DNA of 64,000 bases, from NCBI RefSeq assembly GCF_937910895.1, contig NZ_CALEMI010000040.1, forward strand, positions 1 to 64,000, given 5' to 3'. This document shows positions 19,029 to 30,457 of the stretch, piece after piece (the stretch's first letter is position 1; each line of letters begins with the position of its first letter). Position numbers and translations under genes: made by a program. This DNA comes from an uncultured Dokdonia sp. Lineage in GTDB: Bacteria; Bacteroidota; Bacteroidia; Flavobacteriales; Flavobacteriaceae. Under the pieces are notes generated by a model. That model worked only from the letters and a program-made list of their open reading frames with translations. It was not told the origin of the DNA and did no database searches.

Positions 19029-19164
19029 TACTTTTAAAATACATGATAATACTCGATACTATTCTCGATAACATTTAATGAGACTCCCGCCAGAGTTTAT
19101 TCAGAGTGTCACACTGAGCTTGTCGAAGTGCGATAATTGAAGAGCGGGAATGAAAATTAGAATT

Positions 19165-20439
19165 ATGAAAAAACACATATTCCCACTACTCCTACTAATG
19201 GTAGGAACTACATTTGCACAAACCAGTTTTGACGCAGACATTGAAGCTGTCAAAGATAAAGTCATTGAATGGCGTCGTGATTTTCACGAAAATCCTGAAT
19301 TGGGAAATCGCGAATTCAAAACCGCAGAGAAAATTGCTAATCATCTTCGTTCTTTAGGCATCGAAGTCCAAACAGGGGTTGCCAAAACAGGGGTTGTCGG
19401 CATTCTAAAAGGAAACAAACCTGGAAAAGTCATCGCCCTTCGTGCCGATATTGATGCGCTTCCGGTGACGGAACGTAATGACTTATCTTTCAAATCAGAA
19501 GTAAAAACCACATTTCTAGGTGCAGAAACAGGTGTGATGCACGCTTGTGGGCATGATACACATACGGCTATTTTAATGGGCGTTGCAGAAGTTCTTGCCA
19601 AGAACAAAGATAAAATCAACGGAACGGTAAAATTCATTTTCCAACCCTCTGAAGAAGGTCCACCACCGGGAGAAGAAGGTGGTGCTAAGTTGATGGTGAA
19701 AGAAGGGGTACTGGAAAACCCTAAAGTAGATGCCATCTTCGGATTGCATATTAATAGTGGTACACCCGTCAATACGATCCGTTACAAACCTGGCGGAACG
19801 ATGGCAGCCACAGAGCGTTTTGTGGTGAATGTTAAAGGAAAACAAACCCATGGGAGTCAGCCGTGGTCTGGGGTGGATCCGATTTATATTTCGGCGAAAA
19901 TCATTGATGGGTTTCAGAGTATTATTTCGAGAGAAAGTAAATTAACCGACGAAGCTGCGGTAATTACCATTGGAAAAATCACATCTGGGCTACGTTTTAA
20001 CATCATTCCTGAAAGCGCAGAGCTGATTGGTACCGTGCGCACATTAGATCCTGATATGCGAACTAAAATCATCAGACGTATGAACGAAATGGCACGAGAC
20101 ATCGCCAAAGCGTACGGAGGCGAAGCCACCATCGAATGGCAAAATATGACAGTGGTAACTTTCAATGATCTTGATCTGACTGCACAAATGCTTCCAACCC
20201 TTCAAAAGGTAGGCGGTACTGAAAATATTCAATTACAGAAAGCCGTAACAGGCGGAGAAGATTTCTCCTTTTTTCAAGAAAAAGTGCCTGGTTTCTATTT
20301 CTTCTTAGGGGGAATGACACCAGGAAATACAGAAGTATTTCCGCATCACACCCCCGATTTCTTTATCGACGAATCTGGCTTCCAATTAGGTGTCAAAGCG
20401 TTAAGTCAGATGAGTATTGATTATTTGAATGGGAAATAA
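19165..20439 (+). CDS. M20 family metallopeptidase / amidohydrolase, paralog A
   Basis: 'WRRDFHENPELGNREFKTAEKIANHL', 'VMHACGHDTHTAILMGVAEVL', 'PSEEGPPPGEEGGA'. Confidence 0.93.
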   Translation: MKKHIFPLLLLMVGTTFAQTSFDADIEAVKDKVIEWRRDFHENPELGNREFKTAEKIANHLRSLGIEVQTGVAKTGVVGILKGNKPGKVIALRADIDALPVTERNDLSFKSEVKTTFLGAETGVMHACGHDTHTAILMGVAEVLAKNKDKINGTVKFIFQPSEEGPPPGEEGGAKLMVKEGVLENPKVDAIFGLHINSGTPVNTIRYKPGGTMAATERFVVNVKGKQTHGSQPWSGVDPIYISAKIIDGFQSIISRESKLTDEAAVITIGKITSGLRFNIIPESAELIGTVRTLDPDMRTKIIRRMNEMARDIAKAYGGEATIEWQNMTVVTFNDLDLTAQMLPTLQKVGGTENIQLQKAVTGGEDFSFFQEKVPGFYFFLGGMTPGNTEVFPHHTPDFFIDESGFQLGVKALSQMSIDYLNGK

Positions 20440-20456
20440 ATAGCTTCTTAATGGAG

Positions 20457-20516
20457 CGGGTGGTTGTTTTCTATTTTTTATAATTTGCGTAGCATAAAAA
20501 ATAGAAAACTTTCCGT
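20457..20516. repeat. GGGTGGTTG-stem-CTTTCCGT hairpin element, copy 1
   Basis: ttttctattttttat / ataaaaaatagaaaa 15-bp stem, loop aatttgcgtagc. Confidence 0.8.
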
Positions 20517-20580
20517 GCCACTCTTGTCGCCAAATGTCAATAGACTACTTGAATGGGAAGTAAGTTGTTCCTTTTGGAGC

Positions 20581-20623
20581 GGGTGGTTGTTTTATAAATT
20601 GCGTAATTTATAAAACTTTCCGT
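20581..20623. repeat. GGGTGGTTG-stem-CTTTCCGT hairpin element, copy 2
   Basis: ttttataaatt-gcgt-aatttataaaa 11-bp perfect stem. Confidence 0.8.
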
Positions 20624-20684
20624 ACCACTTCTGCTACCAGATGCGTATTGATTATTAGAATGAAAATACTATTTTAAAATATTT

Positions 20685-21266
20685 ATGTACCTTGAAATAG
20701 AAAACGAACTCCCTATGGACAAGATCGACAAAGCCCTACAAAGCATGATTGATAATATGCCTGAAAAGACAGGTAAATCATTAGCGCAATGGAAAGCGCT
20801 TCTCAAAACAACTTCGTTCAGTAAACACTCTGAAGCTGTCAACTTTCTAAAGAAAGAACATCGAGTCACGCATGGCTTTGCAAATACCATTGTCGCTTTA
20901 TCAAAAGAAGAAGACAACTCCCCTGCTGATCTTGTGGAAGCTCAATACAAAGGAAAAGAAAACCTACTTCCTATCTACAAACAATTACTTACGGTCGTTA
21001 AAGGTTTTGGAAATGATGTAATTATTACTCCTAAAAAAACCACGGTGAGTATCATTAGAAAAAAGCAATTTGCTTTAATCAAACCAGCAACCAAAACTCG
21101 TATTGATTTGGGCTTAAAATTAAAAGACACTCCAACCACAGAGCGTCTTGAAAATTCAGGACCTTTTGGTACGATGTGTACGCATCGTGTCAAGGTATCT
21201 CATAGTGATGAGATAGATGATCAACTTATCGGGTGGTTAAAAGAAGCCTATCAAATGGCTGATTAA
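20685..21266 (+). CDS. DUF4287/DUF5655 domain-containing protein
   Basis: 'MIDNMPEKTGKSLAQWKALLKTTSFSKHSEAVNFLKKEHRVTHGFANTIV' plus DUF5655-like C-terminus. Confidence 0.8.
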   Translation: MYLEIENELPMDKIDKALQSMIDNMPEKTGKSLAQWKALLKTTSFSKHSEAVNFLKKEHRVTHGFANTIVALSKEEDNSPADLVEAQYKGKENLLPIYKQLLTVVKGFGNDVIITPKKTTVSIIRKKQFALIKPATKTRIDLGLKLKDTPTTERLENSGPFGTMCTHRVKVSHSDEIDDQLIGWLKEAYQMAD

Positions 21267-21366
21267 CTGACTATATCAACAAAACAGTTCCTTACTTCCA
21301 TAAATTCCCTCAATTAATTCGTATTTTTCAGTCAAATCAATTTGTTATTTACTTCAAACCATACCT

Positions 21367-22641
21367 ATGAAATATACAAAAGCACTCCTTTTAAGTGGGA
21401 TGATTCTTGTGTCCGCTTTCGCGAAAGCGCAATCATTAGAAAAAGAAATTAAGGCAGTAGAATCTAAAGTCATTGAGTGGCGTAGGGATTTTCACCAAAA
21501 TCCAGAACTAGGAAATCGCGAATTCAAAACCGCCGAAAAAATCGCAGCGCACTTAAAATCCTTAGGGATTGAGGTGCAAACAGGTGTTGCCAAAACAGGC
21601 GTCGTAGGAATCTTAAAAGGAAAACGTGACGGAAAAGTAGTCGCTTTGCGTGCCGATATTGACGCATTACCTGTCGAAGAACGTGTGGACTTACCCTTTA
21701 AATCAACCGCTAAAGGAACGTATCGCGGGAATGAAGTGCCTGTGATGCATGCCTGCGGTCACGACACACATATTGCTATTTTAATGGGCGTTGCCGAAGT
21801 ACTCGCAAAAAACAACGACTTTGCAGGAACGGTCAAGTTTATCTTCCAACCTGCCGAAGAGGGAGCACCTCCGGGAGAAGAAGGTGGCGCCGAACTCATG
21901 GTGAAAGAAGGGGTGCTGAAAAACCCTGATGTCGACGCTATTTTTGGATTACACATCGGTGCAGGACAAGACATTGGTACAATTGCGTATAAAGCTGGCG
22001 GAATTATGGCGGCTTCTCAAAGTTTTGAAATCAACGTCAAAGGAAAACAAAGTCACGGTTCGACCCCGTGGACGAGTATCGATCCCATTATGGCATCTGT
22101 CAAAATCATAGACGGACTCCAAACAATTATTTCACGAGAATCCCCACTGACGCAAGAAGCAGCGGTACTTTCGATAGGAAAAATCAATGCGGGTGTGCGT
22201 AGTAATATCATTCCTGAAAGCGCACAAATTATAGGAACGCTCCGTACGCTAGATTATGATATGCAAGCCATGATCAACAAACGTATGCAAGAAATGGTCC
22301 CTGCGATTGCAGCGGCATATCGCGCCGAGGCGACCGTTGATATTTCAAAAGGCTATCCTATTACCTATAACCATTTGGATCTCACAGCACAAATGCTTCC
22401 GTCGATGGAAAAAGCCGCTGGAAAAGAGAATGTAAAACTCATCAAAGCCATTACGGGCGCTGAGGATTTCTCATTCTTTCAGAAAGAAGTGCCTGGAGTA
22501 TATTTCTTCTTAGGTGGTAAAACACCCGGAGATACCAACGCAGCACCGCACCATACTCCTGATTTCTACATTGACGAAAGCGGATTGTTATTAGGTGTGA
22601 AGACGTTTGTGCAAATGACGACGGATTATCTTGGAAGTTAA
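21367..22641 (+). CDS. M20 family metallopeptidase / amidohydrolase, paralog B
   Basis: Near-colinear with paralog A; 'VMHACGHDTHIAILMGVAEVLAKN', 'PAEEGAPPGEEGGAELMV'. Confidence 0.93.
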   Translation: MKYTKALLLSGMILVSAFAKAQSLEKEIKAVESKVIEWRRDFHQNPELGNREFKTAEKIAAHLKSLGIEVQTGVAKTGVVGILKGKRDGKVVALRADIDALPVEERVDLPFKSTAKGTYRGNEVPVMHACGHDTHIAILMGVAEVLAKNNDFAGTVKFIFQPAEEGAPPGEEGGAELMVKEGVLKNPDVDAIFGLHIGAGQDIGTIAYKAGGIMAASQSFEINVKGKQSHGSTPWTSIDPIMASVKIIDGLQTIISRESPLTQEAAVLSIGKINAGVRSNIIPESAQIIGTLRTLDYDMQAMINKRMQEMVPAIAAAYRAEATVDISKGYPITYNHLDLTAQMLPSMEKAAGKENVKLIKAITGAEDFSFFQKEVPGVYFFLGGKTPGDTNAAPHHTPDFYIDESGLLLGVKTFVQMTTDYLGS

Positions 22642-22652
22642 AAGTGGTGAAA

Positions 22653-22710
22653 GGGTGGTTGTTTAATAAATTGCGTAATTTTTCTTTACGTAATTTATTA
22701 AACTTTCCGT
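22653..22710. repeat. GGGTGGTTG-stem-CTTTCCGT hairpin element, copy 3
   Basis: tttaataaattgcgtaa / ttacgtaatttattaaa 17-bp stem with one G-T. Confidence 0.8.
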
Positions 22711-22768
22711 TTCTATTTAGTTTGTGCAAATGACGACGGATTATCTTGGAAGTTAGTATCTGGTGAAA

Positions 22769-22827
22769 GGGTGGTTGTTATTGCTTTTTTGTAAAATGCG
22801 GAGCATAAAAAAGGAATAACTTTCCGT
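22769..22827. repeat. GGGTGGTTG-stem-CTTTCCGT hairpin element, copy 4
   Basis: ttattgctttttt / aaaaaaggaataa stem with one mismatch; inner atgc-gga-gcat. Confidence 0.75.
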
Positions 22828-23284
22828 TTATATCCTTGTGAATGCAAATGACGACGGATTATCTAGGTAACTAAATGTGGTGAAAGGTTTTTAAAGAAGA
22901 AAAAACAGTTCTCGACTGCGCTCGAACGGACAATGATTATCAATTCATAGTGTTGGAAAATAAAATAATTAAAGTTTTCCATTTCTATTTCTTTGTATAA
23001 ATGATGACGTGATTTCGATACACTCGACTTGCTGCGAAGTTGGCAATCAACTATAATTTAAATACATCACAAAATCACACGTTATTATTTTGTGGTGTAT
23101 TTTTAACGGGAAATCTTTCGATGTATACATCATATTGTTCTTAAATAAACAACTACAATAATTTGAGTTATATTTAATCTTTGTATAGTAATCGATTAGT
23201 AAACTAAATGAATGAACTCATCTAAAAACGTGTCCCTTTTTGAAAACACAATTCAATCTATGAGCACTTCATTACACCTACACC

Positions 23285-26985: not shown

Positions 26986-28581
26986 ATGGATACTATTTTA
27001 AACGTTCTAGGAAATATCCCTTGGTGGGGTTGGATCCTCATTGTCATCGCTATTATTGCCTTGCGAGATATTTTACAACGTAGACACACCATCAGTCATA
27101 ACTACCCTATCGTCGGACACTTACGCTATCTGTTAGAAAGTATTGGTCCAGAAATGCGTCAGTATTTTGTGGCAAATAACCGAGAAGAGTTGCCTTTCAA
27201 TCGTATTGAACGTGGATGGATTTACGCTTCCGCGAAAAAAGAAAACAACTACGAAGGCTTCGGAACCGATCGAGATATCTATGCCCATCAGCATATATTT
27301 ATCAATAATGCGATGATGCCTTATAAAATCGAGGATAACCATCCCAACGCAAAAGACAAAACCTTTTTACCTTGCGCTAAAGTCATTGGCGTCTATCACA
27401 ACCGTAAAAAACCATTCCGTCCCGCATCTGTTATTAATATCAGCGCCATGAGTTTTGGTTCGTTGAGTGCCAAAGCTGTCGAATCCCTCAACAAAGGAGT
27501 GAAAATTGCAGGCGCCTATCACAATACAGGAGAAGGTGGTCTTTCTCCGTACCACAGTCATGGAGGTGATGTTGTTTTTCATTTTGGAACAGGCTACTTT
27601 GGCGTACGTGCCGAAGATGGTGGTTTCTCTATGGAAAAAATGATTAAACTTGTAGAAGACAATCCTTTTATCCGCGCTATTGAGGTAAAGCTATCACAAG
27701 GTGCAAAGCCAGGAAAAGGAGGCGTATTACCAGGTGCAAAAATCACACCCGAAATTGCAAAAATACGTGGCGTCGAAGTAGGTAAAGACGTCCTTTCACC
27801 ACCGAATCATAAAGCCTTTTCTAACGTTCCAGAAATGGTTGATTTTATAGAAGAAATCGCAGCAGCTACAGGATTACCTGTCGGCATCAAAGCGGCTATC
27901 GGGAAACTAGGACAATGGGAAGAACTCGCTGATATTATGGTAAAAACAGGAAAAGGCCCTGATTTTATTACCGTAGATGGTGGTGAAGGTGGTACAGGCG
28001 CAGCGCCTCCGAGTTTTGCAGATCATGTCTCCTTGCCTTGGGTATATGGATTTAGCGATCTCTATCGCCTATTTAAAGAAAAAGGACTCTCAGAACATTT
28101 GGTCTTTATAGGAAGCGGAAAATTAGGATTTCCCGCCAAAGCTGCGATGGCATTCGCGATGGGTGTTGATTGTATAAATGTGGCTCGTGAAGCAATGATG
28201 AGTATTGGTTGTATCCAAGCGAAAGTCTGCCACACCAACCGTTGTCCTTCTGGAATAGCGACACAAAGCAAATGGCTTCAAAACGGAATTGATGTACCAC
28301 TTAAATCAGATCGACTGGCACAATACTTTAGAACTTTTAGAAAAGAGTTTATCGAGATTACTCACGCGGCTGGCTATGAACATCCATGCGAGTTTCAAAT
28401 GAGTGATATCGAAATCAACTTAGGCGATCATCATATTTCTACGGAGTTAGATAATACTTTTGCTTACAAAAAAACACCCGTTCCCTTCAATGGAATGCAA
28501 GAACTCTATGATTGCCAGTATTTAGGAGGTCAAAACAAAATGGAGATGGAAAAAGCAAATATTAGATATACTAAATATTAA
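26986..28581 (+). CDS. FMN-binding glutamate synthase family protein
   Basis: 'SVINISAMSFGSLSAKAVESLNKG', 'GEGGLSPYH', 'FITVDGGEGGTGAAPPSFADHVSLPW', 'CHTNRCPSGIATQ'. Confidence 0.93.
   Translation: MDTILNVLGNIPWWGWILIVIAIIALRDILQRRHTISHNYPIVGHLRYLLESIGPEMRQYFVANNREELPFNRIERGWIYASAKKENNYEGFGTDRDIYAHQHIFINNAMMPYKIEDNHPNAKDKTFLPCAKVIGVYHNRKKPFRPASVINISAMSFGSLSAKAVESLNKGVKIAGAYHNTGEGGLSPYHSHGGDVVFHFGTGYFGVRAEDGGFSMEKMIKLVEDNPFIRAIEVKLSQGAKPGKGGVLPGAKITPEIAKIRGVEVGKDVLSPPNHKAFSNVPEMVDFIEEIAAATGLPVGIKAAIGKLGQWEELADIMVKTGKGPDFITVDGGEGGTGAAPPSFADHVSLPWVYGFSDLYRLFKEKGLSEHLVFIGSGKLGFPAKAAMAFAMGVDCINVAREAMMSIGCIQAKVCHTNRCPSGIATQSKWLQNGIDVPLKSDRLAQYFRTFRKEFIEITHAAGYEHPCEFQMSDIEINLGDHHISTELDNTFAYKKTPVPFNGMQELYDCQYLGGQNKMEMEKANIRYTKY
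28513..28556 (+). repeat. 44-bp direct repeat, left copy
   Basis: tgccagtatttaggaggtcaaaacaaaatggagatggaaaaagc, identical to 30556-30599. Confidence 0.95.
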
Positions 28582-30457
28582 TATCAAAATTATTTTTATA
28601 TAGTTTTTTTGGTATGAAAAGATTTTCGCAAAGTAAAATATATTCTTCTTCCTCTTCTGTTAAGGAGTATTTGTATATTTCATCAGATACTATCAACTTA
28701 TATAAATTATCATTCCTGTATGCCCATTCTATTGTAAAAAACTTTTTGAAAATTTCAAAAGAGTCAAATACTTGATGATTATTTTTAAATTTTCTTATTA
28801 AATTCGAAAAATTTTGTTCAAATTCAATTAATTTTTGATTGTCAAAAACTTTATCATTATTGTTTATCAAGGAATTGTACAACACAATAAAACTTAATGG
28901 AATAAAGATAGATTTTTTAAAAATTGGTTTTTCAAACTCTAACCTATCTAAAAATTCAACAATAAACTTTATACTAAAATAGTTCTTACTTAAGTATTCA
29001 AAAACTAACTTATTAAATGCTATTGAATTATCAGCTGATAAACAAATTGCAATAGCAAACTCATTTGAAATACTAACACCATCATTTCCAATATATTTGT
29101 AAGGCAATTCATGCATTTTTATCATGAAATCAGCAGCTAAATATTCCTGCATAGATTTATGAGAAAATTGATACTTATCAAAACCTGTGTTAATTACAAT
29201 TCCATTTTGAGCTTGTATTTCTTTAATTACTTTTTTGAGTTGATTTTTAGGTAAATCATGATTGTCATGAATTCTACTATAAGAATTAAAAAAATCATCT
29301 TCACTGTAGGCTCTTGATTTAACATTTACACATAAATCATAAGCAAATTGACTTAAAAAGTCATACTTGTCATCATTGTCAAATTTTGAATATTTAGACC
29401 CTTTGTCTAAAACACCTTTTCTATTAAGTATACCTCTTTGCAAATCCCATTCTTCATTTAAGAGTTGTATTAACTTCTTATAAATGAGTTTAGGTCTATC
29501 ATACAATTTACCTGTAGATTCATAAATAGCACATAAATGTGCTAATGTTAATGGGCGTAATGATAAATCATAAAACTTTGAGTTATTTAGAGAATCCATA
29601 AAAGACAGAGATAAATTTTCATCATTAAACCATTTCTTAACGAACTCAGCAACTTGATTGTCTTTTAAGTCACATAGTTCATATTTCTTAGCATAATCAA
29701 AATTATAATCTAATGATGCTGATCTAGAAGTAAGAATAACTAATGAATTATCTAGACTTCTCATCAAATCTTCAATTTCCCTGTAAAAAAAAGATAAACG
29801 CTTTGGTTCTACTTCATCTAAACCATCTAAAATTATTACTGCATTGATCTCATTTAAAAATGCATTAATAATTTTTTCTCTAATTGTTATATTCGAAACA
29901 ATAGATGTCTCGTTAGTTTTATTGTCTTTTACATGAAATAATATCCCTAAGTTGCCTGTTATTCTTGAATAAATTGTTTCATCCTCTAAAAGGTCTTTTA
30001 AATTTATTAAGATAGGTATACTGTAAATACTACTTGTATCTCCTTCAATTAGTTTTTTACAGAGATTTCTGACTGTTGTTGTCTTTCCAGCACCAGGACC
30101 TCCTAATAAAATAATATGTGAATTTACATCGTTAGATCTATTTTGTATTAAATCTTCTATTGTAGAATTACCATTGTATATTGTACTGTCATAACCCTCG
30201 ATTCGAATGTTTATTCCAATATATATATCTTTTAAAAGTTTATTTCCTTTTCTATATGATGCAAAATTTATTGTATTTAAAATATAATTGATATGCCTGT
30301 TAATTGATTCTTCTGTATATTTTTTTGTTATCACTAATTCATAATCACTTTGCTTTGAAATTCTTTTTATTGCTTTAAAAGCTTCTGTTAACAATTGCCC
30401 TACTGCAAAATCAATTAAAAATTTATTCATAAAATACACTAATATATTGTTTTCCAC
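28571..30457 (-). CDS. NACHT (STAND) NTPase domain protein, bacterial NLR-like, putative antiphage
   Basis: Walker A 'HIILLGGPGAGKTTTVRNLCKKLIEG', Walker B 'AVIILDGLDEVEPKRLS', 'LVILTSRSA', 'LRPLTLAHLCAIYESTGKLYDRPKLIYKKLIQLLNEEWD', 'QFSHKSMQEYLAADF'. Confidence 0.9.
   Translation of the reverse strand: MENNILVYFMNKFLIDFAVGQLLTEAFKAIKRISKQSDYELVITKKYTEESINRHINYILNTINFASYRKGNKLLKDIYIGINIRIEGYDSTIYNGNSTIEDLIQNRSNDVNSHIILLGGPGAGKTTTVRNLCKKLIEGDTSSIYSIPILINLKDLLEDETIYSRITGNLGILFHVKDNKTNETSIVSNITIREKIINAFLNEINAVIILDGLDEVEPKRLSFFYREIEDLMRSLDNSLVILTSRSASLDYNFDYAKKYELCDLKDNQVAEFVKKWFNDENLSLSFMDSLNNSKFYDLSLRPLTLAHLCAIYESTGKLYDRPKLIYKKLIQLLNEEWDLQRGILNRKGVLDKGSKYSKFDNDDKYDFLSQFAYDLCVNVKSRAYSEDDFFNSYSRIHDNHDLPKNQLKKVIKEIQAQNGIVINTGFDKYQFSHKSMQEYLAADFMIKMHELPYKYIGNDGVSISNEFAIAICLSADNSIAFNKLVFEYLSKNYFSIKFIVEFLDRLEFEKPIFKKSIFIPLSFIVLYNSLINNNDKVFDNQKLIEFEQNFSNLIRKFKNNHQVFDSFEIFKKFFTIEWAYRNDNLYKLIVSDEIYKYSLTEEEEEYILLCENLFIPKKLYKNNFDINI

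Follow-up and report, generated by a model that had tools for sequence, protein, structure and literature searches.

The four hairpins found in the window, by which we mean the whole stretch of 64,000 nucleotides analyzed here (contig C40 of its genome in the genome-wide counts), belong to a dispersed family of elements, mainly of one flavobacterial genus, with a site-specific link to the 3′ ends of genes; the family is real and apparently new. An element spans about 85 bp and consists of a guide segment A′ of about 6–12 nt, a spacer of about 4 nt, a palindrome enclosed by the boxes GGTGGTTG and CTTTCCGT, and a linker L of about 13 nt. The best explanation, to which we give an even chance, is that the hairpin forms the center of a tiny, non-autonomous mobile element of DNA that is addressed by the guide and replaces the end of the gene concerned. 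The arguments for mobility are the repetition of gene ends around the hairpins, the shared start of the downstream repeat, a G-run in the gene, the complementarity of this site to the guide, and compensatory changes in the two; with all of these weighed, we consider the reading as a whole as probable as its opposite.

The hairpins were located at 20459–20516 (element 1), 20582–20623 (element 2, with a short stem), 22654–22710 (element 3), and 22770–22827 (element 4), all on the forward strand, where the original prediction had placed them, and they score 75.7, 51.3, 76.1, and 69.6 bits, respectively, with a covariance model of the family. The pattern GGTGGTTG-N20–50-CTTTCC is present four times in the window, as compared to 0.01 occurrences expected from shuffled sequences, and the exact pattern GGTGGTTG-N20–50-CTTTCCGT has 15 matches across the window's genome (4.81 Mb), with none for the reversed control pattern. 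The RNA-folding z-scores of elements 1–4 are −4.1, −3.4, −6.2, and −1.9, and mismatches are present in the stem of element 4.

The covariation of the stem can be read directly from two alignments. Among the 15 copies of the window's genome, aligned with MAFFT and not fitted to the structure, 92.7% of the cells are paired, changes on both sides occur in 13 of the 20 pairs, and covariation scores 0.368, versus 0.104 for shuffled and at most 0.118 for slid alignments. The corresponding values for 141 distinct copies, in an alignment that was fitted to the structure, are 94.9%, 17 of 20, and 0.537 (0.137 shuffled, at most 0.176 slid), and the picture given by both sets is the same, bearing out the proposal that pairing is kept while the sequence varies. 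Pairing and covariation extend to the outer boxes, where GGTGCTTG goes together with CTTTGCGT, and GGTAGTTG with CTTTCTGT. Of 138 unique copies, about 100 have boxes that read GGTGGTTG and CTTTCCGT. The base preceding GGTGGTTG is G in 70% of cases, and linker L, which follows CTTTCCGT, is G-poor with a weak TAC start.

In the stem of a functional RNA, G.U pairs are expected to be favored. The imperfect positions of the hairpin are divided evenly between A.C and G.T (33 each), and, since the stem has no preference for G.U, its palindromy is probably needed at the level of DNA. This absence, together with the lack of a T-tract and the position of one hairpin past the own terminator of a tRNA-Leu gene, speaks against the earlier suggestion that the hairpins mark RNA 3′ ends. 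The intrinsic terminator was likewise rejected as a candidate, with the stem AT-rich and the linker devoid of a T-run; such a role is excluded at tRNA-Leu and unlikely elsewhere. The MoxR-type gene also argues against RNA 3′ ends, since a hairpin that resembles a terminator, with a T-run, is located past the repeat there.

A feature that the original prediction did not include is that each hairpin of the window follows a stop codon, and that the 3′ end of the preceding gene recurs after the hairpin; site A, the guide A′, the equal 13-nt spacings, and the pairing of the outer boxes were likewise not part of it. Host gene 1 (19150–20439, forward strand, as are all features of both arrays), taken from the list of open reading frames, encodes an M20-type peptidase/amidohydrolase, as judged from its sequence. 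Its functional 3′ end with the stop codon (X0, 20407–20446) is followed by the candidate guide A′, CTTAATGGA (20447–20455), which lies 3 nt before element 1 and is complementary at seven of nine positions to the candidate site A, TCCAATTAGGT (20381–20391), within the gene. After element 1 and its linker (20517–20530), the alignment of the repeats reveals the first copy (X′) of the 3′ end of the gene, with its UTR, at 20531–20581, which leads to element 2, the linker of that element (20624–20637), and the terminal, partial copy at 20638–20669 (90% identity over 31 nt). Host gene 2 (21367–22641), also from the list of open reading frames, is an M20-type paralog of gene 1 and has its functional 3′ end with the stop codon and UTR (X0) at 22605–22653, with no convincing A′. 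There, element 3 and its linker (22711–22719) are followed by the first X′ copy, defined by repeat alignment (22720–22769), then by element 4, its linker (22828–22841), and the terminal copy at 22842–22887 (89% identity over 45 nt).

Two other features of the window may be mentioned. A second palindrome, (TAC)GCTTTCGCGAAAGC(GTA), with a HIP1-like look, is found at about 21415–21432; it recurs genus-wide in coding and intergenic DNA whether the hairpin element is present or absent (examples are loci L010, L146, L304, L306, and L313–L315). On the reverse strand, positions 28571–30457 encode a protein of 628 amino acids whose sequence, by reading, contains ATPase motifs of the NACHT-like type (GGPGAGKTTTVRNL and ILDGLDE); it may be the product of an NLR-type defense gene.

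Dozens of genes, belonging to eight species and to a few further genera, show the arrangement seen in the window. The end of the gene is directly seen on both sides of the hairpin (X before it, X′ after it) in 67 of 86 arrays, with no clear repeat in the remaining 19. The order is gene, X, stop codon, UTR, hairpin, a linker of about 13 nt (mostly 12–16 nt), X′, and then either the next hairpin or the old downstream flank; the last copy is often without a hairpin and runs on into that flank. The repeated part comprises the last 30–180 nt of the gene, usually including the stop codon, and the tandem units of about 130–250 bp have no coding capacity. Of 79 arrays, 71 lie in the sense direction within 120 nt after the end of an open reading frame, with 17 in the equivalent antisense position. 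The targets, named by sequence reading, include EamA-, SufT-, TrmH-, response-regulator, RodA-, FabH-, and MoxR-type genes, as well as one tRNA-Leu, where the T-arm, the 3′ end, and the terminator are duplicated. Past a tRNA-Gln gene and its terminator, two diverged hairpins, each after CACTTGTGTG, are found at 1251–1562 of locus L215 (genome G236).

The response-regulator locus indicates which DNA is new. In species without the hairpin, the flank leading from this gene to the next one is what elsewhere follows the last X′, and the new DNA is therefore the part between X and X′. In the window's genome this locus has decayed remnants only. The decayed array 3′ of the response-regulator gene at L305 (contig C31 of G000) is apparently split by an insertion, with the 5′ half of the hairpin followed by a gap of about 200 nt, a CTTTCCGT-like 3′ half, the linker, and part of the end of the gene.

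The start of X′ is constant for a given gene across several species, and for the response regulator it is the same in another genus as well (L217/L297). When loci are aligned on the end of CTTTCCGT, the intact gene carries GGG at offsets −2, −1, and 0 in 9, 9, and 6 of 41 cases, with 0.32 expected for each (24 in total versus about 1). This G-run is part of site A, and A′ is the complementary segment of the UTR, its end separated from the hairpin element by about 4 nt. The complementarity is a direct observation: the longest match between A and A′ averages 6.17, whereas pairing A with the A′ of other loci gives 4.53 ± 0.17 and at most 5.17 in 300 shuffles (z 9.9). The comparison had three negative controls, and neither other gene segments nor the linker gave a signal. 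With wobble pairs and mismatches allowed, 29 of 40 loci, which are non-redundant by context and include some orthologs of different species, pass, versus 10.5 (maximum 17) after shuffling. By median, X starts 13 nt after A, X′ starts 13 nt after the hairpin, and 4 nt separate A′ from the hairpin; only the medians of the two 13-nt distances are usable, because the starts of X come from local alignments and the errors of both are correlated. About a quarter of the loci, gene 2 of the window among them, have a weak A′ or none.

Site and guide also change together, between species as well as between genera. For the response regulator, the pair TTATGGG/CCCATAA of this genus corresponds to TTGTGGGGT/ACCCCACAA in G198; for the FAH-type gene, CGGTTTT/AAAACCG corresponds to AGGTTTT/AAAACCT; and for the Gly-rich TPM-type protein, GGCGGCTT/AAGCCGCC in G029 corresponds to GGAGGTTTT/AAAACCTCC in G115. 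The imperfect pairs between A and A′ are G.T in 20 cases and A.C in nine, a mild excess that would suit a regulatory RNA, in which A and A′ pair within the mRNA and form, with the hairpin, a 3′ UTR structure serving stability or processing, the repeats being by-products. The arrays lie in sense directly 3′ of genes, as such a structure would, but the hairpin itself has no G.U preference, the one at tRNA-Leu lies past the terminator, and the gene-end repeats and their breakpoints are left unexplained. We consider this reading very unlikely.

The history of X′ is recorded in its differences from X. Over 1972 nt, these fall at codon positions 1, 2, and 3 in 20, 18, and 112 cases, and 106 of them are synonymous and 44 are not. 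Polarized with orthologs, the X′ side has 41 synonymous and 30 nonsynonymous changes, and the X side has 32 and 12. The synonymous share on the X′ side (41 of 71, versus about 0.27 assumed for neutral change, p 5e-8) directly implies that X′ was a coding sequence during much of its past, as would be expected if X′ were the resident gene end displaced by an incoming copy. A translation-linked alternative, involving bypass or the reading of X′ from the hairpin, was rejected: upstream, the other frames are not clearly less open than that of X′. The codon phase of the breakpoints is near uniform (15/13/9), and X′ is unlikely to be read from the hairpin. Hairpin scores along the arrays, viewed as an age gradient, gave 23 versus 12 (p 0.09, not significant).

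X′ partly tracks X of its own species, which means that ordinary recombination acts as well. The whole arrangement might be explained by passive repeat dynamics, in which a 3′ UTR hairpin stalls replication, template switching or slippage duplicates the gene end and hairpin in tandem, A′ arises as a fold-back copy of A by the same switching, and the arrays persist and spread through homologous recombination with other strains. The copy number of the tandem arrays varies, X and X′ partly co-evolve within species, the searches for Y1, Y2, and reverse transcriptase enzymes in the genomes richest in elements (G011 and G015) were negative, and slippage at palindromes is plausible, all of which would fit. 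Such dynamics, however, do not readily account for the invariant boxes, the G-poor linker, the fixed 13-nt spacings, and the reuse of the same breakpoints, for the co-change of A and A′ over long times, or for the terminal copy that is often hairpin-less and continues into the old flank of the gene. We regard this explanation as unlikely, though deserving serious attention.

From these features we infer that the element moves, and the following scheme, in which a guide-addressed cassette replaces the gene end, would describe its movement. The top strand would fold so that A pairs with A′ beside the hairpin (H), and this pairing would bring two boundaries, A-N13|X and H-L13|X′, to the same distance. 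A strand-transfer enzyme, recognizing the hairpin and addressed by the A′:A pairing, would exchange strands at N13|X and L13|X′, excising a circle [X-A′-H-L] and restoring the gene; the reverse reaction would be insertion. When the cassette enters an empty allele, its own X would rebuild the gene and the resident end would be displaced as X′, and, with A kept, further rounds and unequal recombination could stack units in tandem. A short DNA guide would thus program the choice of target, and the carried gene end would spare the gene from damage. Several observations count against the scheme: no insertion polymorphism or circle was seen among the genomes, one per species; no transposase, recombinase, or reverse transcriptase was identified, the Y1, Y2, and reverse transcriptase families being undetected in G011 and G015; and there are the loci with a weak or missing A′, the 19 arrays with no clear repeat, and the partial tracking of X by X′ within species. 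The possibility that linker L is a diverged copy of the displaced N13 was rejected (identity 0.245 versus 0.256 shuffled), and a complement-like resemblance of L and N13, seen by eye at one locus, proved inconsistent (best of 13 offsets z 3.3).

The covariance model, built from the 15 copies of the window's genome, finds 23 copies in that genome, 55 in G015, 34 in G011, 12 in G001, and 11 in G007, and fewer in G012 (7), G017 (5), and G014 (4); ten further members of the genus lack it. Beyond the genus it is rare: in a sample of 201 genomes of the family, seven other genera have one or two copies each, and in the order-wide sample a single match lies outside the genus. Among the matches listed in a wider scan of contigs, the only real member is an array of two hairpins in Thermobacterium salinum (L035), the others listed being mostly chance. 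The scan, proposed with the original prediction, thus yielded further copies in the genome and its relatives with supported covariation; the prediction was to be given up if either was lacking, and both were found. Several draft contigs end in or beside hairpin arrays (C7, C16, C24, C26, C27, and C31 of G015, C8 of G000, and C2 of G014), and the arrays are therefore probably longer and more numerous than assembled.

Regarding enzymes, Y1 transposase (PF01797) was not detected in G011 (34 copies), G015 (55 copies), G014, G017, or G001, and one Y1 gene is present in G000. Y2 transposase (PF04986) was not detected in G011 or G015; its sole match in the genus, of IS91 type, lies in G000 (contig C31, 3041–3549; L334 and L335) as two pieces in overlapping frames, of which one contains an internal TAA. 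Reverse transcriptase (PF00078) was not detected in G011, G015, G017, or G001. Copying driven by a reverse transcriptase (DGR, retron, or group II intron) was rejected on the results for G011 and G015, a past enzyme of this kind being still conceivable, and an origin from RAYT or another HUH enzyme was rejected on the failure to detect Y1 and Y2 in the same two genomes. Of the initial guesses, a REP/MITE-like element comes nearest to the family as found, but the suggested search for a REP-type (Y1) transposase detected none in these two, the richest in elements. The moving enzyme, if there is one, belongs to another family, is supplied in trans, or has been lost.

A further rival is a relic MITE of an ordinary HUH (Y1) transposase, of the IS200/IS605 or RAYT type, since lost from most genomes. 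A guide located 5′ of the foot of the hairpin and complementary to an upstream target is the layout of the left end of IS608 (PMC5934647), and this layout and the single Y1 gene of G000 speak for such a relic. On the other hand, Y1 was not detected in the five genomes named above, IS608 inserts directly 3′ of its target whereas here a direct repeat of 30–180 bp flanks the insert, the GTAG tag is absent, and the compensatory changes in A and A′ suggest continued function. In our opinion, such an origin is highly improbable.

As for named families, Rfam 15 gave no match above the gathering threshold, in agreement with the initial impression that none fits, and at E values up to 5 it gave only two chance matches to miRNAs. 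No description of the element was found in the literature, within limited, mostly open-access coverage. The family is apparently new on the basis of Rfam, a few profile searches, and this limited search of open-access literature.

Comparison with known systems reveals partial likeness to several of them. The core-site boxes of integron attC sites are RYYYAAC and GTTRRRY, and the boxes found here, GGTGGTTG and CTTTCCGT, are different. The attC sites resemble the present elements in having conserved boxes that flank a variable palindrome, folding at the DNA level, and tandem units (PMC2727003), but the units here consist of the end of the neighboring gene only, and no shuffling between loci was seen. 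REP sequences and their TnpA-REP (RAYT) systems share the short extragenic palindromes, a conserved 5′ tag, and many copies; here, however, the box is GGTGGTTG with no GTAG-type tetranucleotide, no Y1/RAYT was found in the rich genomes, and a gene-end repeat with a gene-specific guide is not among the REP features described in the parts of PMC8266576 consulted. A reverse transcriptase, as expected of a DGR, retron, or group II intron, was not found in the four genomes named above, and the Y2 transposase of IS91/ISCR elements is represented only by the copy in G000, which is in two pieces and has a stop.

In the mobile ORFs of fungal mitochondria (Allomyces, Glomus), the insert brings a copy of the 3′ end of the gene, and the native end stays downstream (PMC3630166). 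The largely synonymous divergence is common to both, as the replaced C terminus would be (PMC3630166), and the direct repeat of the gene end described here has the same character as in elements that integrate at gene 3′ ends. Yet the fungal inserts carry an endonuclease gene of about 0.4–1 kb and no guide-hairpin, whereas the units here, of 130–250 bp, are non-coding and too small for an integrase or endonuclease gene.

In geometry the elements are like IS200/IS605 elements, and in particular IS608, which picks its target via a 4-nt guide located 5′ of its hairpin and inserts directly 3′ of the target (PMC5934647). Common to both are the hairpin, the guide 5′ of its foot that pairs with the target or cleavage site, the palindrome acting at the DNA level, and the very small ends (PMC5934647); the pairing of guide and target is found here at 29 of 40 loci, versus 10.5 shuffled. 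In contrast to the 4-nt guide of IS608, the guide here has about 6–12 nt; the breakpoint lies 13 nt from the paired site, with no insertion directly 3′ of the target free of duplication; and there is a gene-end repeat of 30–180 bp with one hairpin per unit, no tnpA or tnpB, and no Y1 transposase (PF01797) detected in the richest genomes, G011 and G015. It is possible, although we put it forward with some reserve, that these elements form a new class of mobile elements, in which a hairpin unit of about 85 bp carries a DNA guide of about 6–12 nt to a chosen gene, integrates at a fixed distance, rebuilds the end of the protein or tRNA gene harmlessly with a carried copy, and is moved by an enzyme. 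Even if the repeats were passive, they would represent a recurrent site-specific rearrangement of gene 3′ ends matching no family searched here. If the elements do move, a strand-transfer enzyme awaits discovery, and bacteria would possess a natural form of insertion that spares the gene and carries its own address. While the known natural DNA-guided choice of target relies on the four-base guides of IS608, the sequences described here suggest guides of about 6–12 bases, each selecting a single gene and co-varying with it.
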